A stretch of DNA of 64,000 nt from Solitalea longa (GTDB lineage Bacteria; Bacteroidota; Bacteroidia; Sphingobacteriales; Sphingobacteriaceae). The notes under the pieces are model-generated. The model searched no databases, was not told the DNA's origin, and saw only the letters and a list, made by a program, of their open reading frames with translations. The translations under genes and the position numbers were made by a program. Below, in pieces: positions 46,500 through 58,368 of this stretch. Within the stretch, counting starts at the first letter, position 1. Every line of letters starts with the position of its first letter. The stretch covers positions 1 to 64,000 of the forward strand of contig NZ_PQVF01000005.1 in assembly GCF_002920915.1 (NCBI RefSeq), given 5' to 3'.

Positions 46500-46787
46500 C
46501 TAATGATGAAGAAAGCCCGTCCAAAGAAATAACACATATAAAGTAGCTACCACTAAAAACAATACGGTAAGTGCAAATGCGAAACCATTGTGCCCCAGGT
46601 TATACCATTCGCGAACAATCAGGCCTGGTAACAGAATACAATAGGCCAATAAAATGGTCCAACGATAATCACTAAAAACGCCGGTGAAAAGAATTACTGC
46701 GGAAATAGCCATGCATAGAATCAAAATCATCCATGAGTTTCGATTGAATTGGCTGTCGTTGTGGGTATCAAAAAAGAACGTTTTCAT
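46500..46787 (-). CDS. Hypothetical three-pass membrane protein
   Basis: A 95-residue protein with three membrane segments (about 18-36, 43-58, 70-90). The N-terminus is polar with HNDSQFNRNS; the end is WTGFLHH. I recognise no family. It is a single-gene unit closed by its own terminator, before the arginine cluster. Confidence 0.55.
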   Translation of the reverse strand: MKTFFFDTHNDSQFNRNSWMILILCMAISAVILFTGVFSDYRWTILLAYCILLPGLIVREWYNLGHNGFAFALTVLFLVVATLYVLFLWTGFLHH

Positions 46788-47051
46788 AGAAATAAATCTA
46801 TTGTAATAAAATCATTTTCAATTACTTATAAATATACTCAAAGCCTGATGAAAGCCCAAATACTCCAATGAATCTATTGTGCATTAACAGTTTGGCAATT
46901 AATATTTTTTTTATTTGCGATTTTTAAATTAAAATGTGAATATTTGTAAAAAATCATAATAAATTAATTAACTGTTTATTAATTATATAACTAATAGTCT
47001 TCATTCATACTGATTGAGCAATTAGTTAAAACAATAAAGAATCCAAAACAG

Positions 47052-47177
47052 ATGAAAAAACACTTTTTATCATACGTAACCGATATGATAAACGCTTCGA
47101 AAGAAGTGGTTTTTTCTACGCTAATGAGTGTAGTTTTTGTTCACCCAACCCCGGTTGCTTATTTCCCGCGACGCTGA
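47052..47177 (+). CDS. Candidate leader peptide upstream of the arginine cluster
   Basis: A 41-codon frame, ATG at 47052 and TGA at 47175, lies in an otherwise empty 540-base gap. It starts MKKHFLSYVTDM and ends HPTPVAYFPRR, that is, with two arginine codons (CGA CGC) just before the stop, after a proline-rich stretch. Its end overlaps a small hairpin and an internal hairpin followed by T residues lies within it. A regulatory arrest peptide sensing arginine is a possible role. A separate promoter-like element between it and the first arginine gene speaks against, so it may also be a small protein gene or chance. Confidence 0.4.
   Translation: MKKHFLSYVTDMINASKEVVFSTLMSVVFVHPTPVAYFPRR
47116..47138 (+). 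promoter_or_regulatory. Terminator-like hairpin inside the leader frame
   Basis: CTACGC (47116-47121) can pair with GTGTAG (47128-47133) with one G-U pair around TAATGA, followed by five T. CTACGC recurs at 47202-47207, so an alternative pairing is possible. A second short stem, GACGC/GCGTC at 47170-47174 and 47179-47183, encloses the stop codon. Attenuation is speculative. Confidence 0.35.
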
Positions 47178-47300
47178 TGCGTCCATTTTATCACCGACTG
47201 TCTACGCGATGGTCAAGCCTCACATAAAGTTTTCCTGAACATTTAACGTTAACTAAACATTAAAAGCTGAATTTTAAACCAGCACTGTTGATTTAGTTGG

Positions 47301-47308
47301 TATTTTTG
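47301..47308 (+). promoter_or_regulatory. Possible -7 promoter element of the arginine cluster
   Basis: TATTTTTG fits TAnnTTTG and ends 22 bases before the GTG start of the first arginine-cluster gene. No clear -33 element. Confidence 0.45.
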
Positions 47309-47330: not shown

Positions 47331-48014
47331 GTGCAACTTTCTGATTTTGACATAATTGTTGCCAGCGAGCAACATATTTCATATGCTGAGCAAATAGTGG
47401 AGGAAATGGCTGAATCGGCCAAAGCCAGAGGAACCGGTATTGCCAGACGCTCACCCGATTACGTTGCGAATAAAATGCAAGAAGGCAAAGCCGTAATTGC
47501 TTTGCACAAAGACGGAACCTGGGCTGGTTTCTGTTATATCGAAACCTGGAGCCATGGAAAATTCGTTGCCAATTCAGGCTTAATTGTCAATCCTGAGTTT
47601 AGAAAAGTAGGCCTTGCGAAGGCTATCAAATACAAAATCTTCGAACTTTCTCGTCAGCAATACCCCGATTCTAAAATTTTCGGACTAACTACCGGTTTGG
47701 CAGTGATGAAGATCAACTCCGAATTAGGTTATGAGCCTGTAACTTATTCAGAACTCACCACCGATGAAGAGTTTTGGAAAGGCTGTCAGAGCTGTGTAAA
47801 TCATGATATTTTAATGAGCAAAGGCCGCAAAAACTGCCTTTGTACGGCAATGCTTTACGATCCGGCTGAAAAAGAGCCTCCAAAAGAAGAAGAAGAAGTA
47901 AAAAAAGAGGAGCACCTGGAAAAGGTTACTCATAAATCGAAATTGTTTGAACGTATTGAACGCAAACTTGGTTCGTTCAAACTGTTTAATGCTTTCTTTT
48001 TAAACAAATACTAA
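47331..48014 (+). CDS. GNAT acyltransferase, candidate N-acylglutamate synthase of the arginine cluster
   Basis: A 227-residue GNAT protein starting at GTG. The fold is seen in IALHKDGTWAGFCYIETWSHGKFVANSGLIVNPEFRKVGLAKAIKYKIFEL, with the acyl-CoA loop FRKVGLA. The C-terminus has a cysteine-containing segment (GCQSCVNHDI) and an acidic Lys/Glu-rich tail. As first gene before argG it is the natural candidate for the missing first step, transfer of an acyl group to glutamate. If the pathway is the succinyl one, the donor would be succinyl-CoA. The family assignment is firm, the substrate is inferred. Confidence 0.75.
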   Translation: MQLSDFDIIVASEQHISYAEQIVEEMAESAKARGTGIARRSPDYVANKMQEGKAVIALHKDGTWAGFCYIETWSHGKFVANSGLIVNPEFRKVGLAKAIKYKIFELSRQQYPDSKIFGLTTGLAVMKINSELGYEPVTYSELTTDEEFWKGCQSCVNHDILMSKGRKNCLCTAMLYDPAEKEPPKEEEEVKKEEHLEKVTHKSKLFERIERKLGSFKLFNAFFLNKY

Positions 48015-48134: not shown

Positions 48135-49322
48135 ATGAAAAAAGTAGTATTGGCTTTTAGCGGCGGATTGGACACCTCTTACTGCGCCGTATACCTGTCG
48201 AAGGTAAAAAACATGGAGGTACATGCCGTAACTGTTGACACAGGCGGTTTTAGCAAAGAAGAACTTGTTCAGATTGAAGAACGCGCACTTTCCCTTGGCG
48301 CAAAAACCTACCGATGCATTAACGAAATAGACAACTATTACGAAAGCTGCATTAAGTATCTCATCTTCGGAAATATCTTAAAAAATAACACTTATCCCCT
48401 TTCTGTAAGCGCGGAACGCATTGCACAGGCTATGGCTATTGCAAAATATGCTAAGGAAATTGGAGCTGAAGCAATTGCCCATGGTTCTACCGGAGCGGGC
48501 AATGACCAGGTACGTTTTGATATGGTTTTCCAAATTCTAACTCCTGAAGTTGAGATCATCACTCCTATCCGCGACAATAAACTTTCGCGTGAGGCAGAGA
48601 TCGAATTCTTAGCAAGATATGATGTTGTTTACAGTGCGGAAAAAGCTAAATACTCTATTAACAAAGGCATTTGGGGAACATCTGTTGGCGGTGCAGAAAC
48701 CCTTACCTCTAACGGTTTCTTACCGGAAAGTGCATGGCCAACGCAGGTAACTAAATCAGAGCCAGAAGATATTACTTTGCATTTTGAAGCAGGTGAACTT
48801 AAAGGCATCAATGATAAAAAATATGAAAAATCGGCTGACGCAATTTTAGCCTTAACTGCAATTGCTGCTCCTTTCGGAATTGGCCGTGATATTCATATTG
48901 GTGATACCATTATAGGTATTAAAGGCCGTGTAGGCTTTGAAGCACCTGCTCCTTTGATTATTATTAAGGCACACCACACTTTAGAAAAGCATGTGCTTAC
49001 CAAATGGCAGTTGTACTGGAAAGACCAGCTAGCCATGTTCTACGGAAACTGGTTGCATGAGGGTCAGCTACTTGATCCAACAATGCGAGACATTGAATCA
49101 TTTTTACAGAGCACTCAACAGTTTGTTACCGGAAAAGTATTTGTAAGTCTTCGCCCTTACCAGTTTTTGGTTACGGGTATTGAATCAGATCATGATTTGA
49201 TGAGCGCCAAATTTGGCAGCTACGGCGAGATGAACAATACCTGGAGTGGCGAAGATGTTAAAGGCTTTACCAAGATATTCGGTAACCAGGTGAGTATATA
49301 TCATAAAGTGAACAATTTATAA
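48135..49322 (+). CDS. argG: Argininosuccinate synthase
   Basis: Joins citrulline and aspartate with ATP to argininosuccinate, the second-last step. The PP-loop AFSGGLDTSY starts at residue 7, and GSTGAGNDQVRFDMVFQ and SINKGIWGTSVGG follow as in the family. It has 395 residues. It is the second gene of the cluster, 120 bases after the GNAT gene. Confidence 0.96.
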   Translation: MKKVVLAFSGGLDTSYCAVYLSKVKNMEVHAVTVDTGGFSKEELVQIEERALSLGAKTYRCINEIDNYYESCIKYLIFGNILKNNTYPLSVSAERIAQAMAIAKYAKEIGAEAIAHGSTGAGNDQVRFDMVFQILTPEVEIITPIRDNKLSREAEIEFLARYDVVYSAEKAKYSINKGIWGTSVGGAETLTSNGFLPESAWPTQVTKSEPEDITLHFEAGELKGINDKKYEKSADAILALTAIAAPFGIGRDIHIGDTIIGIKGRVGFEAPAPLIIIKAHHTLEKHVLTKWQLYWKDQLAMFYGNWLHEGQLLDPTMRDIESFLQSTQQFVTGKVFVSLRPYQFLVTGIESDHDLMSAKFGSYGEMNNTWSGEDVKGFTKIFGNQVSIYHKVNNL

Positions 49323-49331
49323 ACGCTAAGT

Positions 49332-49400
49332 GATAGAATGACTGAATGATAGAATGAGTGAATATTCTGTCATTCAATCCTTCTTTCATTCAACCATAGT
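49332..49400. repeat. GAATGA / TCATTC inverted repeats between argG and argC
   Basis: GATAGAATGACTGAATGATAG on the left is echoed in inverted form by TCTGTCATTCAATC on the right, with related short units. Same family as the array at 6090-6152. Located between two co-directed genes, it may fold as a stem-loop in the message. Confidence 0.6.
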
Positions 49401-49404
49401 ACTA

Positions 49405-50412
49405 ATGCAACAAACTACCATACGTGCAGGCATCATCGGCGGAGCTGGTTATACAGGCGGCGAATTATTACGCATCCTGATTAACCATCCAAATGTTGAA
49501 ATTGCCTTTGTACATAGTAATAGTAATGCCGGCAATTTAGTTTCAGATGTCCACACCGATCTACTGGGTGATACCGATCTGAAATTTGCGGCAGAAACAT
49601 CCCAGAATATCGACGTTTTGTTTTTATGTGTGGGTCATGGCGATGCTAAGAAATTCCTTTCAGCAAATCACTTTGATGCACGAATTAAAATCATTGACTT
49701 AAGCCAGGATTTCCGTTTAAATAAGGCGGATGGCCATATTTTAAATGCAGAACAAGGCGACAGAACTTTTACCTACGGATTGCCTGAACTTCAGCGGGAG
49801 GACATTAAATCAGCTCAAAACATTGCTAACCCAGGTTGTTTTGCCACCTGTATTCAGTTAGCATTATTGCCATTGGCTGCCAAAGGTTTGTTAAACGAAG
49901 AAGTTCATATTTCGGCCACAACCGGTTCAACTGGGGCGGGCCAATCATTAAGTACTACTTCACATTTCTCTTGGCGAAACAATAATCTTTCTGTTTACAA
50001 AGCTTTCGGTCATCAGCATCTAAAAGAGATCACTCAAAGTGTAAAGCAATTGCAGAACGGTTTTTCCAAGGAAATTAATTTTATACCTTACAGAGGTGAC
50101 TTTGCCAGAGGAATCATGGTTTCCGCTTATACAGAATTTGAGGGTACACAAGAAGAGGCAGAGAAGCTTTATACAGATTTCTATGCTTCACATCCGTTTA
50201 CGCATGTTTCAGGTAACAATATTGACCTCAAGCAGGTAGTGAACACCAACAAATGCTTAGTTCATGTAGAAAAACATGGCAGTAAGCTAATGGTACTGAG
50301 CATTATCGATAACCTGTTAAAAGGAGCTTCGGGACAAGCGGTTCAAAACATGAATTTAATGTTTGGCTTAGATGAAAACGCCGGATTGAGACTAAAACCG
50401 GTAGGATTTTAG
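49405..50412 (+). CDS. argC: N-acyl-gamma-glutamyl-phosphate reductase
   Basis: Reduces the acylglutamyl phosphate with NADPH to the semialdehyde. The NADP loop IIGGAGYTGGELLR, the catalytic cysteine in ANPGCFATCIQL and the histidine in RGHxxE-like FGHQHLKEITQ are in place. The ATG at 49405 gives 335 residues; the frame is open 17 codons further upstream, into the repeat, and that part does not look like protein. It follows argG. Confidence 0.95.
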   Translation: MQQTTIRAGIIGGAGYTGGELLRILINHPNVEIAFVHSNSNAGNLVSDVHTDLLGDTDLKFAAETSQNIDVLFLCVGHGDAKKFLSANHFDARIKIIDLSQDFRLNKADGHILNAEQGDRTFTYGLPELQREDIKSAQNIANPGCFATCIQLALLPLAAKGLLNEEVHISATTGSTGAGQSLSTTSHFSWRNNNLSVYKAFGHQHLKEITQSVKQLQNGFSKEINFIPYRGDFARGIMVSAYTEFEGTQEEAEKLYTDFYASHPFTHVSGNNIDLKQVVNTNKCLVHVEKHGSKLMVLSIIDNLLKGASGQAVQNMNLMFGLDENAGLRLKPVGF

Positions 50413-50448
50413 GGTAGTTTTAAGTGATAAGTATTTAGTAATAAGTAA

Positions 50449-50808
50449 ATGCAGGATTATAGAAAACTACTCGTTTGGCAACGTTCACATCTGTTCACTC
50501 TTGAGATTTATAAAATCTCGACGGATTTTCCAAAATCTGAACAGTTCGGTGTTACTAGTCAGATTAGACGTGCTGTTTTTTCAATTCAAAGCAATGTGGC
50601 CGAAGGATGCGGAAAGTATACAAAAAATGATTTGGCGAACTATCTTCAAACATCTTTAGGCTCCGTAAACGAAGTTTCATACTTATTACTTCTTTCAAAA
50701 GACCTAGAATACATATCAAAAGAGAGCTACAATAAGTTAGATTCAGAAATAGATGAAATTAGAGCAATGATGATTGCATTAATCAACAAAGTAAGAGGAA
50801 ATGAATAA
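50449..50808 (+). CDS. Four-helix-bundle protein (23S rRNA intervening-sequence type)
   Basis: A 119-residue protein whose start MQDYRKLLVWQRSHLFTLEIYKIS and the segment VTSQIRRAVFSIQSNVAEGCGKYTKNDLANYLQTSLGSVNEV are the hallmark of the family first seen in rRNA intervening sequences and widespread as free-standing genes. No enzyme motif; the function is unknown. It sits inside the arginine cluster, between argC and argD, with short spacers (36 and 61 bases), and looks like an insertion into an otherwise biosynthetic operon. Confidence 0.9.
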   Translation: MQDYRKLLVWQRSHLFTLEIYKISTDFPKSEQFGVTSQIRRAVFSIQSNVAEGCGKYTKNDLANYLQTSLGSVNEVSYLLLLSKDLEYISKESYNKLDSEIDEIRAMMIALINKVRGNE

Positions 50809-50869
50809 AATTCCATGCTTTTAACAATCATAGAATTACTTCAAAACTAATTACTCAAAACTTAGAACT

Positions 50870-52012
50870 ATGAATTTATTCGATGTATATCCATTATTCC
50901 CATTTGAATTGGTAAAAGCTGAAGGCTCTTACGTTTGGGATGAAAACGGAAATAAATATTTAGACTTATATGGCGGTCATGCCGTGATTTCCATTGGCCA
51001 CACCCACCCGCATTATGTAAAGCTGATCAATGAGCAGCTAAACAAAATCGGATTCTATTCTAACTCAGTTCAAATTCCTATTCAAAAAGAATTAGCTAAA
51101 AAATTGGGTGAGTTAACAGGAGGCTATGAAGATTACAGCCTGTTTTTATGTAACTCAGGTGCCGAAGCGAATGAAAATGCGTTAAAGCTAGCTTCATTTC
51201 ATACCGGAAGAAAGAAAATTGTAGCATTTAGCAAATCATTCCATGGTCGCACTTCGGCTGTTGTTGCTGCAACGGATGATAAATCGATCATTGCTCCTAT
51301 AAACGAAACGAGCAATATCATCTTTGTTCCATTTAATGATGAAGCGGCTTTAGAAGCTGTAATGAATAATGAAATTGCAGGAGTTATTATTGAAGGCTTA
51401 CAAGGTGTTGGCGGTGTGCAGGTGCCAACTGACTCATTCTTACAAAAAGTACGTTCGTTGTGTGATAAGTTCGGCGCGTTAATGATCATGGATGAGATCC
51501 AATCAGGCTACGGACGTTCAGGTAAATTCTTTGCACATCAGCATTCAAATGTTAAAGCCGATATTATTTCAATGGCCAAAGGCATGGGCAATGGCTTTCC
51601 AATCGGAGGAATTATCATCGCTCCTCACATTGAAGCTAAGCACGGCATGTTGGGAACCACTTTTGGAGGAAATCATCTAGCCTGCGCGGCAGCAATTGCA
51701 GTTTGCGATATCATTAAACAAGAAAAACTGATGCAAAATGCTGCAGAAGTTGGATCTTATTTAATGGCTGAACTTAAAAAGTTCGAAGGCATTAAAGATG
51801 TTCGTGGTTATGGATTAATGATTGGGGTGGAGCTGGATAACTATGCTGAGGTACGCAAAAAACTTATGAACGACTTTAAGATTCTTACCGGTGTTTCGGG
51901 TAAGCAAAATACAATTCGTTTGCTTCCTCCTTTAAATATCACCAAAGCTGAAGCAGAGAAATTCTTGCAGGCTTTTGAGCAGGTATTGAATTCGGTTGCG
52001 GTTGCTAAATAA
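50870..52012 (+). CDS. argD: N-acylornithine aminotransferase
   Basis: A class III, PLP-dependent aminotransferase that converts the acylglutamate semialdehyde to N-acylornithine. The PLP lysine is in MAKGMGNGFPIGG, with the aspartate in MIMDEIQSGYGRSGKFFAHQH; LYGGHAVISIGHTHP and CNSGAEANENALKLA fit. It has 380 residues, a usual length. It is downstream of the four-helix protein and upstream of the transcarbamylase. Confidence 0.93.
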   Translation: MNLFDVYPLFPFELVKAEGSYVWDENGNKYLDLYGGHAVISIGHTHPHYVKLINEQLNKIGFYSNSVQIPIQKELAKKLGELTGGYEDYSLFLCNSGAEANENALKLASFHTGRKKIVAFSKSFHGRTSAVVAATDDKSIIAPINETSNIIFVPFNDEAALEAVMNNEIAGVIIEGLQGVGGVQVPTDSFLQKVRSLCDKFGALMIMDEIQSGYGRSGKFFAHQHSNVKADIISMAKGMGNGFPIGGIIIAPHIEAKHGMLGTTFGGNHLACAAAIAVCDIIKQEKLMQNAAEVGSYLMAELKKFEGIKDVRGYGLMIGVELDNYAEVRKKLMNDFKILTGVSGKQNTIRLLPPLNITKAEAEKFLQAFEQVLNSVAVAK

Positions 52013-52084
52013 GTTTAGCAGCTATTATTATATTAACAGTCTGAAAAGCATCTGAGCATTAATAACATAACTCAAGTTTTGCCA

Positions 52085-53050
52085 ATGAAACATTTCACAT
52101 CAGTAAACGATGTTAATGACCTGAATAAATGGGTTAGCGAGGCGCTTAAAATTAAAAGTGACCCTCTTGGCTTTGTCGATATCGGAGGTCAGAAGACCAT
52201 GGGCCTGGTATTTCTAAACCCTAGTTTACGTACCCGCATGAGTACCCAAAAGGCGGCTATGAATCTGGGCATGAATACTATGGTTATCAATATGGATAAA
52301 GAAGGCTGGCGCTTGGAAATGAATGATGATGTGATAATGGATGGGTATACGGTTGAACATATTAAGGAAGCCGCCGCAGTATTAGGTCAATATTGCGATA
52401 TTTTGGGCCTTCGCTGTTTCCCTAATCTTAAAGATAAACAGGAAGATTACAGTGAAGACATTCTGAATAAGTTCATTAAATATTGTGGTGTACCGGTGGT
52501 TTCTCTCGAAAGCGCTACCCGTCATCCACTGCAAAGTTTTGCTGATCTAATCACCATAAAAGAACATGCCACCAAGTCAAAACCTAAAGTAGTTTTAACC
52601 TGGGCCCCGCATGTAAAACCGTTACCACAGGCCGTTTCAAACTCGTTTTCGGAATGGATGGTTAAGGCCCAAGAGTTAAATATGGTTGATTTTGTGATCA
52701 CTCATCCTGAAGGCTATGAACTCGCTGAAGAATTTACAAAAGGTGCCAAAATTACTCACAATCAGAATGAGGCATTGAAAGACGCAGATTTTGTGTATGT
52801 GAAAAATTGGTCAAGCTACAGTAATTACGGCGAGATTTTAACTGATGGCAAGGGCTGGATGATGGACAATGAAAAACTAAAGCTAACCGATAATGCCAAA
52901 GTGATGCACTGTTTACCTGTTCGCCGTGGACTGGAGCTCGGCAATGATATCCTAGACGGTAAAAACTCCCTGGTTATCCATGAAGCCGCCAACCGCGTTT
53001 ATGCGGCACAAACCGTCCTTAAAAAGTTAATAGAAGGAAACAAACTTTAA
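52085..53050 (+). CDS. argF': N-acylornithine transcarbamylase, probably N-succinylornithine type
   Basis: Transfers a carbamoyl group from carbamoyl phosphate to N-acylornithine to give N-acylcitrulline. FLNPSLRTRMS (carbamoyl phosphate site), ATRHPLQSFADL and HCLPVRRG are the family motifs. The ATG at 52085 gives 321 residues. In the DGYTVEH segment, residue 90 is Val (52352-52354); the acetyl-specific enzyme of Xanthomonas has Glu92 and the succinyl-specific enzyme of Bacteroides has Pro90 at that place. Published mutants Glu92 to Val, Pro, Ser or Ala switch to succinylornithine, so a succinyl substrate is likely. The alignment was by eye. Confidence 0.92.
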   Translation: MKHFTSVNDVNDLNKWVSEALKIKSDPLGFVDIGGQKTMGLVFLNPSLRTRMSTQKAAMNLGMNTMVINMDKEGWRLEMNDDVIMDGYTVEHIKEAAAVLGQYCDILGLRCFPNLKDKQEDYSEDILNKFIKYCGVPVVSLESATRHPLQSFADLITIKEHATKSKPKVVLTWAPHVKPLPQAVSNSFSEWMVKAQELNMVDFVITHPEGYELAEEFTKGAKITHNQNEALKDADFVYVKNWSSYSNYGEILTDGKGWMMDNEKLKLTDNAKVMHCLPVRRGLELGNDILDGKNSLVIHEAANRVYAAQTVLKKLIEGNKL

Positions 53051-53054
53051 TAAA

Positions 53055-53130
53055 ATGAAAGAAGGATTGAAGAAGAGAACGATTGAAGAAAGCCTTTCTA
53101 TTCTCTCAATCTATCATTCTGTCATTCAAT
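53055..53130. repeat. GAATGA/TCATTC-type repeat between argF' and argB
   Basis: AGAAGGATTGAAGAAG-type units on the left face TCTCAATCTATCATTCTGTCATTCAATC on the right in inverted orientation. It shares the octamer theme with the arrays at 6090 and 49,332. Confidence 0.55.
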
Positions 53131-53143
53131 CATATTTAAGTAC

Positions 53144-53929
53144 ATGCAACAAGCTGTCAACATTATAAAAGTAGGCGGAAACATTATTGATAACGAAGAA
53201 AAGCTCGCTTCGTTTTTAAAAGATTTCTCGGAACTAAAGGGATTAAAGGTATTAATTCATGGTGGTGGCAAAGTAGCTACCGAAATAAGCAAAGGTTTAG
53301 GCATTGAAGCTAAGATGGTGGATGGCCGCCGAATTACTGATAATGAGACCTTGAAGATCGTAACGATGGTGTATGCAGGTTTAATTAACAAAAACCTTGT
53401 TGCTAAGTTACAGGCGTTGAGTTGTAATGCTATCGGATTAACAGGAGCTGACGCAAATATTATCCCGGCTCATAAACGACCAGTTAAAGAAATTGATTAC
53501 GGTTTTGTGGGAGATGTGGAAGAAGGTAAAATGGATGGAAAAATTCTTTCTACTTTATTGCAAGCTGAGCTCACCCCTATTTTGGCGCCATTGACTCATG
53601 ATCAGCAGGGGAACATGCTAAACACCAATGCCGATACCATTGCATCAACAGTTGCAGTTTCACTTTCAAAAAACTTTAAAGTAAACCTGATTTATTGTTT
53701 TGAAAAAGATGGTGTGTTGGATGGAGAAGATAAAGTAATTCCTGCAATCAGCAAAACGTACTTTGCTGAACTGAAAGAGCAGGGAATTGTTGTGGCGGGT
53801 ATGATACCTAAACTTGACAATGCTTTTGCCGCTATTGACAAGGGCGTTTCTTCGGTTTACATTATGCACGCTGATGGATTAAAAGATTTGATCAACAACG
53901 ATCGGAATTCGGGGACAAAAATTTCGTAA
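53144..53929 (+). CDS. argB: N-acylglutamate kinase
   Basis: Phosphorylates the gamma-carboxylate of N-acylglutamate, the second step. The amino-acid kinase pattern is KVGGNIIDNEEKL, IHGGGKVATEISKGLGIEAKMVDGRRITDNETL and NTNADTIASTVAVSL. It has 261 residues and lacks the N-terminal helix of arginine-inhibited kinases, so feedback by arginine is not expected from the sequence. Confidence 0.93.
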   Translation: MQQAVNIIKVGGNIIDNEEKLASFLKDFSELKGLKVLIHGGGKVATEISKGLGIEAKMVDGRRITDNETLKIVTMVYAGLINKNLVAKLQALSCNAIGLTGADANIIPAHKRPVKEIDYGFVGDVEEGKMDGKILSTLLQAELTPILAPLTHDQQGNMLNTNADTIASTVAVSLSKNFKVNLIYCFEKDGVLDGEDKVIPAISKTYFAELKEQGIVVAGMIPKLDNAFAAIDKGVSSVYIMHADGLKDLINNDRNSGTKIS

Positions 53930-53962
53930 TCGATTATAAAGCGCTACCAACGCTAAACCACA

Positions 53963-53985
53963 TGAAGTTTATTTTATAAACTTCA
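53963..53985. other. Perfect palindrome before proC
   Basis: TGAAGTTTA (53963-53971) and TAAACTTCA (53977-53985) are perfectly complementary around TTTTA. It lies 12 bases before the proC start. It may fold as a hairpin in the message or be an operator; neither is shown. Confidence 0.5.
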
Positions 53986-53997
53986 AAAGCTTAATAC

Positions 53998-54816
53998 ATG
54001 TCAACACAAAACCTCAACATCGCCATTTTGGGTGGTGGAAACATTGGCTTGGCTCTTGCCAAAGGACTCGTAACATCAGGCAGTTATAACGCCGAACAAA
54101 TTACCATTACCCGTCGTAACCTTGGCGCCTTACAGCCCTATTCTATCCAAGGTTATAAAATCACCAATGATAATAATGCCGCTGCAAAATCTGCTGATAT
54201 TGTTGTTTTGGGAGTACTTCCGCAGCAATTAAATGGTTTATTAGCCGAGATCAAGGATTCGATCAACGAAAACCAGCTCATCATTTCTTTAGTTACAGGC
54301 GTATCAATTCAGGATGTAAAAGACAATCTTGGAAAAGCTCCGGCCGTAGTAAGAGCAATGCCAAACACCGCTATTTCTGTGGGTGAATCGATGACCTGTA
54401 TATCATTTGATGGCGTTAGTGCCGAGCGCAAAGAATTGGTGAATGAAATTTTCAATACCGTTGGAATTACGCAGGAAATTAAAGAAGAACTAATGACCTC
54501 TGCCACCGCCTTATGTGCATGCGGTATCGCCTTTTTCTTGCGCTCTATCCGTGCAGCCATGCAAGGAGGTGTTGAGATCGGGTTTCATTCTGAAGAAGCT
54601 TTAAATATGGCGGTGCAAACAGCTAAAGGAGCTGCTGCCTTATTAGCTAAAGAAGACGCTCACCCAGAACGAGAAATTGATAAAGTTACTTCTCCTCGTG
54701 GTTGTACCATTGCCGGATTAAATGAAATGGAGCATCAGGGTTTTAGCTCAGCACTTATTAAAGGTATCCGAACTTCTGCAATAAAAGCTGGTGGATTGTA
54801 TTCGAAGGATTCTTAG
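53998..54816 (+). CDS. proC: Pyrroline-5-carboxylate reductase
   Basis: Reduces pyrroline-5-carboxylate to proline with NAD(P)H. The Rossmann start is IAILGGGNIGLALAKGLV; RAMPNTAISVGESMTCIS and the C-terminal EIDKVTSPRGCTIAGLNEME signature are intact. It has 272 residues, normal. It is placed inside the arginine cluster, between argB and argE, which ties proline and arginine formation from glutamate. Confidence 0.94.
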   Translation: MSTQNLNIAILGGGNIGLALAKGLVTSGSYNAEQITITRRNLGALQPYSIQGYKITNDNNAAAKSADIVVLGVLPQQLNGLLAEIKDSINENQLIISLVTGVSIQDVKDNLGKAPAVVRAMPNTAISVGESMTCISFDGVSAERKELVNEIFNTVGITQEIKEELMTSATALCACGIAFFLRSIRAAMQGGVEIGFHSEEALNMAVQTAKGAAALLAKEDAHPEREIDKVTSPRGCTIAGLNEMEHQGFSSALIKGIRTSAIKAGGLYSKDS

Positions 54817-54923
54817 TTTTGCAATCCCTGAAAAGGGAACCATTAACCTTAAAGAATCGATTCGAAATTTAGAGATTCTTCGATTTATATTAAATAGAAG
54901 AGTGCTATAAAGTATACTATATA

Positions 54924-55991
54924 ATGAACCATGAACTTAAACACGACGCTATAGAATTGCTGAAAAAGCTGATTTCTATTCAGTCGTTTAGTAAGGAAGA
55001 AAATGTTACCGGCGATCTGATCGAATCTTTCTTAAAAGAAAGAGGTGTATTTACTTTTCGCAAAATGCATAATATCTGGGCATTTAATAAGCATTACGAC
55101 CCTAAAAAGCCCACTGTTCTTTTAAACTCACATCATGATACAGTAAAGCCTAATAAAGGTTATACCAAAGATCCTTTCTCTCCAATTGTTGAAGACGGCA
55201 AGCTATTTGGCTTGGGCAGTAATGATGCTGGCGGATGTTTAGTTTCCCTTATGGCCACCTTCCTTTATTATCACGATCAGGAAAACTTAAAATATAATGT
55301 AGCTTTTGCCGCTTCGGCTGAAGAAGAAATTTCGGGTTTTAATGGCATCGAACTTATTGTGCCCGAACTTGGACCTGTAGAGTTTGCCATTGTTGGAGAG
55401 CCTACTCAAATGCACCTGGCTATTGCCGAAAAAGGTTTAATGGTATGCGATTGTGTTGCTTACGGAAAATCGGGACATGCGGCACGTGAAGAAGGCGACA
55501 ATGCTATTTACAAAGCATTAAAAGATATTCAGTGGCTGAGTTCCTATCAATTCCCTAAAGTGTCTCCATTTATGGGGCCCATTAAGATGAGTGTGACCAT
55601 CATTCATGCAGGCTCTCAGCACAATGTAGTTCCTGATAGGTGTGAGTTTACGATTGATGTGCGCGTTACCGAGCAGTATACGCATGAGGAACTCTTGGAA
55701 ACCATTCGGGCCAATGTAAGCAGTGAGGTTACACCACGATCTATGCGTATGCGTTCTTCAGCTATTGATATCAATCACGCGATTGTTCAATCGGGTTTGG
55801 CATTAGGCAGAGAAACCTATGGTTCTCCTACTACTTCCGATCAGGCCTTAATTCCGGTGCCTTCTTTAAAATTAGGCCCTGGCGATTCGGCAAGATCTCA
55901 TACTGCAGATGAGTACATCTATTTGAATGAAATTGAAGAGGGTATTGACCTTTATATACAGATATTGAGTAAGGTGATTAAGGGGTTGTAA
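54924..55991 (+). CDS. argE: M20 deacylase of the arginine cluster (ArgE-type)
   Basis: A zinc-dependent hydrolase that removes the acyl group from N-acylcitrulline or N-acylornithine. Motifs are SHHDTVKPNKG, GSNDAGGCLVSL and AASAEEEISGFNGIELI, with the second-domain GKSGHAA and the ending GPGDSARSHTADEYI. It has 355 residues and no signal peptide, so it is cytosolic, unlike the exported M20 enzyme at 11.4 kb. It follows proC by 107 bases; the actual acyl group removed follows from the transcarbamylase (probably succinyl). Confidence 0.88.
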   Translation: MNHELKHDAIELLKKLISIQSFSKEENVTGDLIESFLKERGVFTFRKMHNIWAFNKHYDPKKPTVLLNSHHDTVKPNKGYTKDPFSPIVEDGKLFGLGSNDAGGCLVSLMATFLYYHDQENLKYNVAFAASAEEEISGFNGIELIVPELGPVEFAIVGEPTQMHLAIAEKGLMVCDCVAYGKSGHAAREEGDNAIYKALKDIQWLSSYQFPKVSPFMGPIKMSVTIIHAGSQHNVVPDRCEFTIDVRVTEQYTHEELLETIRANVSSEVTPRSMRMRSSAIDINHAIVQSGLALGRETYGSPTTSDQALIPVPSLKLGPGDSARSHTADEYIYLNEIEEGIDLYIQILSKVIKGL

Positions 55992-56123
55992 GTTGCGGGT
56001 TAGGGGTTTCACATTGTAAACTTTTTAATAATCATTTGATCTAGTCAGAAGACTTAGAAAGATATTACAATGATTAATTATTTAAATTAGAAACTCAACA
56101 CGAAATTCGAAACCCGTAATCTT

Positions 56124-56942
56124 ATGCTAAAGGAAAAATACCTTCACGGCTTTTCGAAAACTGAACAGGAGCGCTTAATGCGCCAGGCTCGTTTTCTCGA
56201 AAACTATATTTATACAGACATCGATCTTTCATCAGTTGAGAATCTGCTGGAGGTGGGTAGCGGTGTGGGTGCACAAACAGAAATTTTGCTACGCCGATTC
56301 CCTTCAACACAATTAACCTGTGTTGATTTTTCGGAGAGCCAGATTGAAACAGCGCGTGCTTTTTTAAGTGAAAATCCGGTGGCAAAAAACCGCTATGAGA
56401 TTTTGCAGATGGATGCCACCGATATGGATTTTAATGCAAATGATAAATTCGACGGGGCTTTTCTTTGCTGGGTATTGGAGCATATCCCTAACCCCGTAAA
56501 AGTGCTATCAGAGATCAGACGGGTGCTAAAACCAGGAAGTGTAGTTTATCTGACGGAGGTATTGAATTCGAGTTTTTTTCTCGACCCCTATTCTCCCAAC
56601 ACCTGGCTTTATTGGAAGCGTTACAACGACTTACAATATGACATGGGCGGAGATCCGTTTATTGGAGCCAAATTAGGAAACATGCTGCAAAGTGTAGGCT
56701 ATTCCAATATTCAAACAACGGTTAAAACCATTCATTTGGATAATCGTCAACCGGGGAAGCGGGCCGAGATGATCAATTTTTGGGCTGATCTGTTGATGAG
56801 CGGAATGCCTAACTTAATTGATTCGGGATATGTGGAGGCTGAAACTGCCGAAAAAGTAAAAGAAGAAATGAAAGCCGTAGCCAAAAACCCAAATGCCGTA
56901 TTTTTTTACTCATTTGTACAGGCTAAGGCGTATACTTCATAA
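56124..56942 (+). CDS. Class I SAM-dependent methyltransferase
   Basis: A 272-residue methyltransferase with motif I LLEVGSGVGAQTEILL (about 41-56) and FDGAFLCWVLEHIPNPVKVLSEIRRVLKPG downstream. The C-terminal ~100 residues carry an additional helical region with KTIHLDNRQPGKRAEM. The target is unknown. It is located between argE and argH without a clear role in arginine formation; it may be a passenger of the operon. Confidence 0.85.
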   Translation: MLKEKYLHGFSKTEQERLMRQARFLENYIYTDIDLSSVENLLEVGSGVGAQTEILLRRFPSTQLTCVDFSESQIETARAFLSENPVAKNRYEILQMDATDMDFNANDKFDGAFLCWVLEHIPNPVKVLSEIRRVLKPGSVVYLTEVLNSSFFLDPYSPNTWLYWKRYNDLQYDMGGDPFIGAKLGNMLQSVGYSNIQTTVKTIHLDNRQPGKRAEMINFWADLLMSGMPNLIDSGYVEAETAEKVKEEMKAVAKNPNAVFFYSFVQAKAYTS

Positions 56943-56943
56943 A

Positions 56944-56989
56944 AGATGTGAGATGTGAGATGTGAGATGTGAGATGTGAGATGTGAGAT
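56944..56989. repeat. Tandem heptamer repeat AGATGTG x 6
   Basis: Six identical copies of AGATGTG (56944-56985) plus a partial copy lie just after the methyltransferase stop and 50 bases before argH. Perfect identity suggests slippage-prone, recently changing DNA. The unit length of seven can change the spacing between the two genes. Confidence 0.95.
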
Positions 56990-57036
56990 AAAAATAAATT
57001 CGTGAAATTCGATTAATTCGAAAAATTAGTGTTTAA

Positions 57037-58368
57037 ATGAAACTCTGGGCAAAAAACACCAACGTACAAAAAGAAGTAGAACAATTTACAGTAGGTAACG
57101 ATCGTGAGTTGGATATGTACCTGGCACCGTTTGACGTGTTAGGCTCCATTGCACATATTACCATGCTAGAGAGCATTGGACTATTAAGCAAAGAAGACCT
57201 TTCGACCTTAAAAAAAGAGCTGGTAAAAATTTACAGTGAAATTGAGCGCGGAGAATTTAAAATTGAAGATGGGGTTGAAGATGTTCACTCACAGGTAGAA
57301 TACTTATTGACTCAACGAATTGGTGAAGCCGGAAAAAAGATTCACAGTGGTCGTTCGCGTAACGACCAGGTATTAGTTGACATTAAACAATACCTGCGTA
57401 ATGAATTAAAGCAAATTGTGCAATTGGTACAGCAGTTATTCGATACGCTGCAAGGACTGAGTGAGGAACATAAAGAAAAACTAATTCCGGGATACACGCA
57501 TTTGCAAATCGCTATGCCTTCATCGTTTGGTTTATGGTTTGGTGCTTACGCCGAATCGCTGGTTGACGATATGGAGTTGCTATTGGCCGCTTATAAGGTT
57601 TCCAATAAAAATCCCTTAGGCTCGGCTGCAGGTTATGGCTCCTCATTTCCATTAAACCGTACTCTAACTACTGAACTATTGGGTTTTGGCGCCTTAAACC
57701 ACAATGTAGTTTATGCACAAATGACACGCGGAAAGTCAGAGAAGATCGTATCTATGGCTTTAGCATCGGTAGCTGCTACCTTATCAAAATTCGCTTATGA
57801 TGTTTGTTTATACATCAGTCAGAATTTCGGATTCATCAGCTTTCCTGATCATTTGACCACCGGATCGAGCATAATGCCGCATAAAAAGAATCCTGATGTT
57901 TTTGAACTGATCCGGGCTAAATGCAATAAATTGCAAGGCTTACCTAATGACCTCACCTTATTAACGAATAATCTGCCATCGGGTTATTTCCGCGACATGC
58001 AAATCACCAAGGCACTGATCATTCCGGCATTTGAAGAGCTAACCGATTGCCTTCAAATTTGTAATTACATGCTGCAGCATATTACCTGCAATGATGGCAT
58101 CACTAATGATGAAAAGTATAAATACATATTTAGCGTTGAAGTAGTGAATAACCAGGTATTACAGGGTGTACCGTTTCGCGAAGCTTATAAAAGCGTTGGC
58201 TTAGCAATAGAAGATGGCAATTTTGAAGTCCCTGATAGTATTAACCATACACACGAAGGAAGCATTGGCAATCTTTGTACCTCTCAAATAAAAACCGCAA
58301 TGGATAGCGTTATTGCTGGCTTTGGCTTTGAAAAAGTTGAAAAAGCTATTGAGAAGCTATTAAAATAA
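57037..58368 (+). CDS. argH: Argininosuccinate lyase
   Basis: Splits argininosuccinate into arginine and fumarate, the last step. The fumarase-superfamily signature GSSIMPHKKNPD (about 279-290) is intact, with EDVHSQVEYLLTQRIG and KIHSGRSRNDQVLVD early on. It has 443 residues, near the usual 455. It is the last gene of the cluster and is closed by a strong terminator. Confidence 0.95.
   Translation: MKLWAKNTNVQKEVEQFTVGNDRELDMYLAPFDVLGSIAHITMLESIGLLSKEDLSTLKKELVKIYSEIERGEFKIEDGVEDVHSQVEYLLTQRIGEAGKKIHSGRSRNDQVLVDIKQYLRNELKQIVQLVQQLFDTLQGLSEEHKEKLIPGYTHLQIAMPSSFGLWFGAYAESLVDDMELLLAAYKVSNKNPLGSAAGYGSSFPLNRTLTTELLGFGALNHNVVYAQMTRGKSEKIVSMALASVAATLSKFAYDVCLYISQNFGFISFPDHLTTGSSIMPHKKNPDVFELIRAKCNKLQGLPNDLTLLTNNLPSGYFRDMQITKALIIPAFEELTDCLQICNYMLQHITCNDGITNDEKYKYIFSVEVVNNQVLQGVPFREAYKSVGLAIEDGNFEVPDSINHTHEGSIGNLCTSQIKTAMDSVIAGFGFEKVEKAIEKLLK

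Follow-up and report, generated by a model that had tools for sequence, protein, structure and literature searches.

The window analysed here is a stretch of 64,000 nucleotides. It contains a 41-codon open reading frame in a gap of 543 nt, which extends from a divergent frame (start at 46787) to the GTG start codon, at 47331, of a GNAT acetyltransferase gene, the first gene of an arginine cluster. The features of the locus are as follows.

46914..46946, + strand: candidate promoter of the leader transcript, TTTG, 21 nt, AATATTTG (7 of 8 positions matching TAnnTTTG)
47052..47177, + strand: leader peptide ORF of 41 codons (41 residues), ATG start, MKKHFLSYVTDMINASKEVVFSTLMSVVFVHPTPVAYFPRR, ending FPRR (CGA CGC) before the stop
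47137-47238: overlapping frame with a TTG start, from the ORF list
47170..47183, + strand: hairpin straddling the stop codon, GACGC-TGAT-GCGTC, found by a scan; its 5' arm contains the last Arg codons and its loop the stop codon
47196..47214, + strand: second hairpin, GACTGTC-TACGC-GATGGTC, loop UACGC, identified by covariation; hairpin model R1 matches at 47133-47216
47331..48014, + strand: GNAT acetyltransferase gene, GTG start, first of the arginine cluster (PF00583, 20.9 bits against a cut-off of 20.7)
48135..49322, + strand: argG, argininosuccinate synthase, named after the best NCBIfam models, which score below their cut-offs
49354..58368, + strand: argC, argD-like, N-acetylornithine carbamoyltransferase-like, argB, proC, ArgE/DapE-like, a methyltransferase-like frame and argH

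In the last segment argC, argB, proC and argH score over the NCBIfam cut-offs, and the argD, carbamoyltransferase and ArgE/DapE assignments lie below them; the methyltransferase-like label comes from a reading of the sequence by eye. The GNAT gene, which barely passes its Pfam cut-off and carries no NCBIfam name, is nearly universal in the family (227 of 251 genomes) and lies upstream of argG. Within the arginine pathway, its product may act as acetyl- or succinylglutamate synthase. The gene that follows it is argG in 67 of 68 loci, and argG was also observed in ten of 13 further loci (L207-L219).

The block at 46914-46946 is strongly conserved in the four genomes of the window genus. TAnnTTTG is a promoter consensus. 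It occurs in exact form up to 200 nt before the leader in 48 of 135 loci, at a distance of 36-55 nt in 38 of these; no exact upstream copy is present in the window genus. Judged by its sequence, the block with AATATTTG is likely the promoter of the leader RNA. Between the leader stop codon and the GNAT gene, TAnnTTTG is found in two of the 135 loci only, the window and a relative (L017). An earlier note on this DNA had proposed that the -7-like element TATTTTTG at 47301-47308 could make the leader a separate unit; the element exists, but since it is confined to these two loci we do not retain it as the mark of a separate unit.

Leader frames in related genomes

The 41-codon frame is real. The earlier note had described a frame of this length ending in Arg-Arg (CGA CGC) upstream of the arginine genes, and it is present as claimed, its 3' end reading ...CCG CGA CGC TGA, and kept in the genus. 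All four genomes sampled from the window genus, the window's own included, contain it, with identities of 100, 100 and 93% to the other three. The DNA of the ORF and 13 bases 3' of the stop are nearly frozen in the genus, and much of the flanking non-coding DNA has diverged. Substitutions in the last 12 codons are exclusively synonymous (pN 0.00 versus pS 0.16), and in the remaining codons they are mostly so (0.02 versus 0.07). Because three other genomes of the genus keep the frame while the flanking non-coding DNA diverges, it is not a chance frame; it is very probably translated.

Short frames at the same place upstream of the GNAT gene were found in 109 of 109 scored family loci from 17 genera, a count that leaves out L153, which could not be scored, and the GNAT-bearing genera g12, g17 and g22. 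Ninety of these loci were examined first; a single pattern retrieved 86 of the frames, and the four of the window genus, which the pattern missed, were added separately. In these 90 loci the frames end some 80-155 nt upstream of the GNAT start codon. Twenty further family loci yielded a frame in all 19 that were scored, 17 of Pedobacter type and two of a Sphingobacterium-type genus, labels that derive from the likeness of the leaders to those of named loci.

The N-termini of the leaders differ between most genera of the family; the C-terminal ends are alike (SRRRLFIPRV, RHRRPFMPRV, RFRRPILPRA, SRQNFTPRI and IRPFPRR, the window leader itself ending AYFPRR). ORFs of at least 25 residues with three or more Arg in the last 12 are present in 89 of the 109 loci, versus 1.4 expected from dinucleotide shuffles. 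The 20 loci without such an ORF comprise all four from the window genus and 16 of the 17 of Pedobacter type. In the eight genera tested dN/dS is below 1 in both parts of the leader (one value being saturated), with values of 0.33-0.77 for the N-terminal part in the seven genera where it could be computed, and pS exceeds pN in every comparison made.

The GNAT gene is also found in 83 of 247 genomes of the class, 75 of these outside the family. Among the 69 class loci outside the family that lack argR, 29 have an ORF with an Arg-rich end (3.5 expected by shuffling). The other 40, which have no ORF of this kind, count against an arginine sensor; in some of them the frame has no more than two Arg (L130, L175) or is longer, and many show none. 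In named public genomes, many of which overlap with the genomes of the other counts and which are not independent of them, 73 of 78 loci with sufficient upstream DNA have a frame with Arg at position -2 (counted from the C-terminus). Seventy of these have at least three Arg in the last 12 residues, and one of the other three (L276) is plainly a different frame. The named loci with a leader include Mucilaginibacter, Parapedobacter, Sphingobacterium, Pedobacter, Daejeonella, a Cyclobacteriaceae genome, Myroides and Chitinophagaceae, many of the last ending PF-x-VRR.

Two other arrangements were observed before the GNAT gene. In L192, L196 and L198 a Ser/Thr-rich short frame (MNK.SLHITSLSRT...SPEVR..), possibly a different leader, replaces the Arg-rich frame. 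In L140 and L146, short frames located about 179 and 212 nt before the GNAT gene, respectively, end in LRSPRRQPNTAG and YRSLRRRPYAAG, carry an Arg cluster and are followed by a GC-rich hairpin with a T-run, an arrangement that looks like a variant of the classical attenuator.

Probable arginine sensing, ArgR and the conserved leader end

ArgR, a DNA-binding repressor, was not found in the window's own genome or in any of 121 family genomes by a search that does find it in the control genome Bacteroides ihuae and others. Matches were obtained in 14 of 247 class genomes, in 11 of them over the cut-off. In six class genomes (L204, L206-L210) argR lies directly upstream of the GNAT gene on the same strand, and none of these six loci has a frame with an Arg-rich end before the GNAT gene. 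Upstream of argR itself, the four loci with DNA there contain no frame with at least three Arg (L204 and L206 have too little DNA for this check); the pair of short frames seen in L208, with two Arg, does not resemble the leader. The six loci come from two families only and therefore represent few independent events. Two genomes are possible exceptions to the mutual exclusion of leader and ArgR. G411 combines Arg-rich frames before its GNAT gene (L195) with a borderline ArgR match just over the cut-off (1.1e-5) on another contig, and G421 combines a leader (L136) with a sub-threshold match at another site (5.5e-4). The two matches fall in frames that exceed 300 residues and the length of the argR frames; they may not represent ArgR.

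Repressor gene and leader peptide seem to swap at one site, where argR presumably does the same job. The leader is found at this spot in bacteria without ArgR, and therefore it is probably the arginine sensor of its carriers. We consider it likely, on comparative sequence evidence, that the arginine operon is controlled by a regulatory leader peptide that senses arginine through ribosome stalling. The earlier note had placed the frame where regulation of arginine synthesis would be expected, and had read its layout as that of a sensing or arrest peptide, a candidate leader. The conserved Arg-rich ends, the arginine pathway genes downstream and the absence of ArgR support an arginine-sensing leader peptide.

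The leader ends were compared in 135 frames, weighted as 31 groups: 17 genera of the family and 14 groups of other families, the latter derived from 26 of the 75 class loci and picked by the search pattern. Position -2 is Arg in 135 of 135 frames, a figure that is partly built in, because the pattern demanded Arg at the last or last-but-one position. Its codon varies between groups, with AGG, AGA, CGG, CGA, CGC and CGT all represented. Further Arg residues are located at positions -7 to -10 (group-weighted frequency 0.72 at -8 and 0.51 at -7, mostly CGA). Position -5 is aromatic in 0.64, and in the majority of members in 20 of the 31 groups, against a background of 0.109; position -3 is Pro in 0.54. 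The last 12 residues contain 3.67 Arg on average, compared with 0.42 per 12 residues elsewhere; the window peptide, with just two, falls below this group-weighted mean, which counts against the sensor reading. CGA accounts for 38% of the Arg codons in leader ends and for 15% in 36 long ORFs of the window. Because differing codons encode the same end, residues and not only bases are kept across groups. Conservation of the C-terminal residues and Arg codons before orthologous clusters, which the earlier note had suggested checking, extends through the family and into other families; for the residues it is independent of the codon, with Arg at -2 partly selected for.

This conservation of residues could reflect an arrest peptide, in which the nascent chain (R-x-x-F/Y-x-P-R-x-stop) would stall the terminating ribosome, arginine being a possible ligand, and in which the conserved residues would matter rather than the Arg codons alone. 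The aromatic residue at -5, the Pro at -3 and the use of all six codons for the Arg at -2 point in this direction, as does Phe at -5 in 16 of 19 Chitinophagaceae-type named leaders. However, some members lack the aromatic residue (RRPILPRA in g4 and g16, SRSSRSRA in the Myroides locus L288), the M-P part of the motif doubles as a hairpin arm, and frames had been selected for an Arg in one of their last two positions. Codon and residue are moreover inseparable in the Chitinophagaceae-type leaders, because 18 of the 19 have CGA at -2. Termination arrest overlaps with the sensing of arginine by a stalled ribosome, which leaves the way of stalling open; as a separate explanation we regard it as rather unlikely. 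The many natural variants of the leader could separate codon sensing from nascent-chain sensing. Also rather unlikely is a broader proposal, that of one slot, widespread in the Bacteroidia, for two unrelated arginine sensors, where a termination-arrest peptide (R-R-x-F/Y-x-P-R-x-stop) with a stop hairpin, and in some lineages a UACGY hairpin, would exchange with ArgR.

A conserved small protein with a function of its own, merely adjoining the arginine genes, would be in keeping with the purifying selection on the N-terminal part of the leader. However, many genera have N-termini with no evident relation to one another, whereas the Arg-rich end and the location upstream of the GNAT gene are retained, and in six class genomes it is argR that occupies this place. 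We consider such a protein very improbable.

RNA hairpins and the output step

The stop-straddling hairpin corresponds to helix 1 of an alignment of 13 sequences, A4, in which 78.5% of the cells are paired. In a swap test, the pairing between the last 24 nt of each ORF and the 24 nt that follow was set against the pairing obtained with the corresponding stretch from other groups. In 12 of 31 groups fewer than 10% of the swaps paired as well (about three expected; group mean 0.264), and the hairpin is clear in g16, g4, g15, g7, f63, f44 and others. In g3, g13, g14, f15, f15b, f41, f45 and f58 it is about at chance level or worse (0.42-0.88). The window genus has the hairpin with weak support, 0.25 of swaps being as good.

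A second hairpin, which covaries and carries a loop of the UACGY type, lies about 20 nt 3' of the stop hairpin in the window genus and several families. When only uninterrupted stems of at least four pairs are counted, hairpins with a UAYGY loop occur in 13 of 135 sequences, versus 0.28 expected; five groups have the loop 23-27 nt past the stop, and a sixth has it at 15 nt. In alignment A4, whose 13 sequences were chosen for showing this hairpin, seven of seven pairs change on both sides and 94.5% of the cells are paired. The covariation score of both helices is 0.715, compared with 0.10-0.20 for slid partners. A4 excludes L134 and L144, both with insertions, as well as L177, L180, L185 and L194, whose loop is similar. 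Run against 50 sources, the hairpin model matches L144, L180 and L213 besides its own members (E up to 0.01). In the own genome it gives a single match (E up to 0.1, strict filters), and a further copy there was rejected. The motif has no Rfam match: none reaches the gathering score in the window, and seven related loci gave one weak match below that score, about 1 kb from the leader. The hairpin stretch of the window is not unusually stable (z -0.92).

We also considered pairing between the UACGY loop and the 3' arm of the stop hairpin. It looks good by eye in L129, L144 and L145, and was dropped because it is absent in L138, L169 and L134. The 7-nt loop C-UACGY-G (47203-47207 in the window, and in A4) has what we take to be a resemblance to the anticodon loop of tRNA-Arg(ACG) (U33-A-C-G). 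A role as tRNA-Arg(ACG) mimic is conceivable; the UAUGU of L185 breaks the likeness. That the element acts as RNA only, with the open frame a by-product of conserved RNA structure, would account for the nearly frozen DNA of the window genus, including the 13 bases past the stop, and for the covarying hairpins, but is hardly credible given that peptide ends are kept with different codons across groups, that the frame occurs in all scored family loci and that pS exceeds pN throughout.

No common output step emerged from the comparison. Terminator-like hairpins at or below -6 kcal/mol before the GNAT gene are absent from all four genomes of the window genus and were found in 17 of 90 loci (6.1 expected), confined to some groups; an intrinsic terminator was therefore rejected as the common output. 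Pairing of the Arg codon region with the GNAT start region gave swap-test values below 0.1 in only five of 31 groups (g4, g7, g16, f3 and f39; about three expected; mean 0.405). No general sequestering pair emerged: masking of the GNAT start by the Arg codons is convincing in g4, g7 and g16 only, and partly in g15 and g19. In 22 groups folded with the Arg region forced open by blocking the ribosome footprint, the GNAT start was not generally freed, with a rise in single groups such as f39. The output step seems to differ between lineages, and a step based on Rho or on pausing is possible.

Near the GNAT start of L051, L058, L064 and L033, in several genera, we observed hairpins of the type AAGAC..GTCTT (or AAAAGC..GCTTTT) and TCCG..CGGA together with T-runs. 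Their layout resembles that of a terminator reaching into the start region, although only some of them reach the -6 kcal/mol threshold.

Proposed mechanism and known systems

We favour control of the arginine operon by an arginine-sensing leader peptide, because the coding frame, the Arg-rich end, both hairpins, the position and the absence of ArgR are all supported by comparison. According to this model, the promoter just upstream would give rise to the leader RNA, and ribosomes would translate its 41 codons. At the end of the leader the ribosome would meet Arg codons within the stop-straddling hairpin. When charged tRNA-Arg is scarce, it would pause at these codons and keep the stop hairpin open, and the downstream RNA would then take a form that allows expression of the operon (GNAT, argG, argC, argD, carbamoyltransferase, argB, argE and argH). 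When arginine is plentiful, the ribosome would finish the leader, the stop hairpin would close and expression would fall. We infer translation, the pausing, its direction and the output step alike. The simplest account would be a ribosome-mediated arginine attenuator, the first half of which resembles known ones, standing in for ArgR.

A literature search, for which most subscription journals were outside reach, retrieved no arginine leader of Bacteroidota, nor did the literature searched describe how arginine is controlled in Bacteroidota without ArgR. The leader is a concrete candidate for the sensor in many genera.

In attenuators of the kind of E. coli trpL and hisL, an amino acid biosynthetic operon is preceded by a short ORF that contains codons for the operon's product. 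The window leader has this layout too, and shares with them the location of the control codons in the 5' arm of a hairpin, with the stop codon in its loop. It differs from them in the arginine signal, the penultimate Arg with an often aromatic residue at -5, the lack of a general intrinsic terminator and an output step that seems lineage-dependent. SpeFL is a small peptide whose residues matter for stalling, together with a ligand. The same holds for TnaC (PMC8429421), and the window leader is likened to both as a small peptide with possibly residue-dependent stalling, not by sequence.

In Staphylococcus aureus, the rbfL leader peptide contains Arg codons and senses when arginine is short; it occludes the ribosome site of a biofilm regulator and thereby represses it (PMC13009471). 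Both are leaders with Arg codons, likened here by that description and not by sequence; the controlled gene and the phylum differ. Flavobacterium psychrophilum belongs to the same phylum, and signs of attenuation by leader peptides upstream of its amino acid operons have been reported (PMC9723704). The proposed class of mechanism is the same; the passage on attenuation names no arginine operon, and an arginine case may be among these attenuators.
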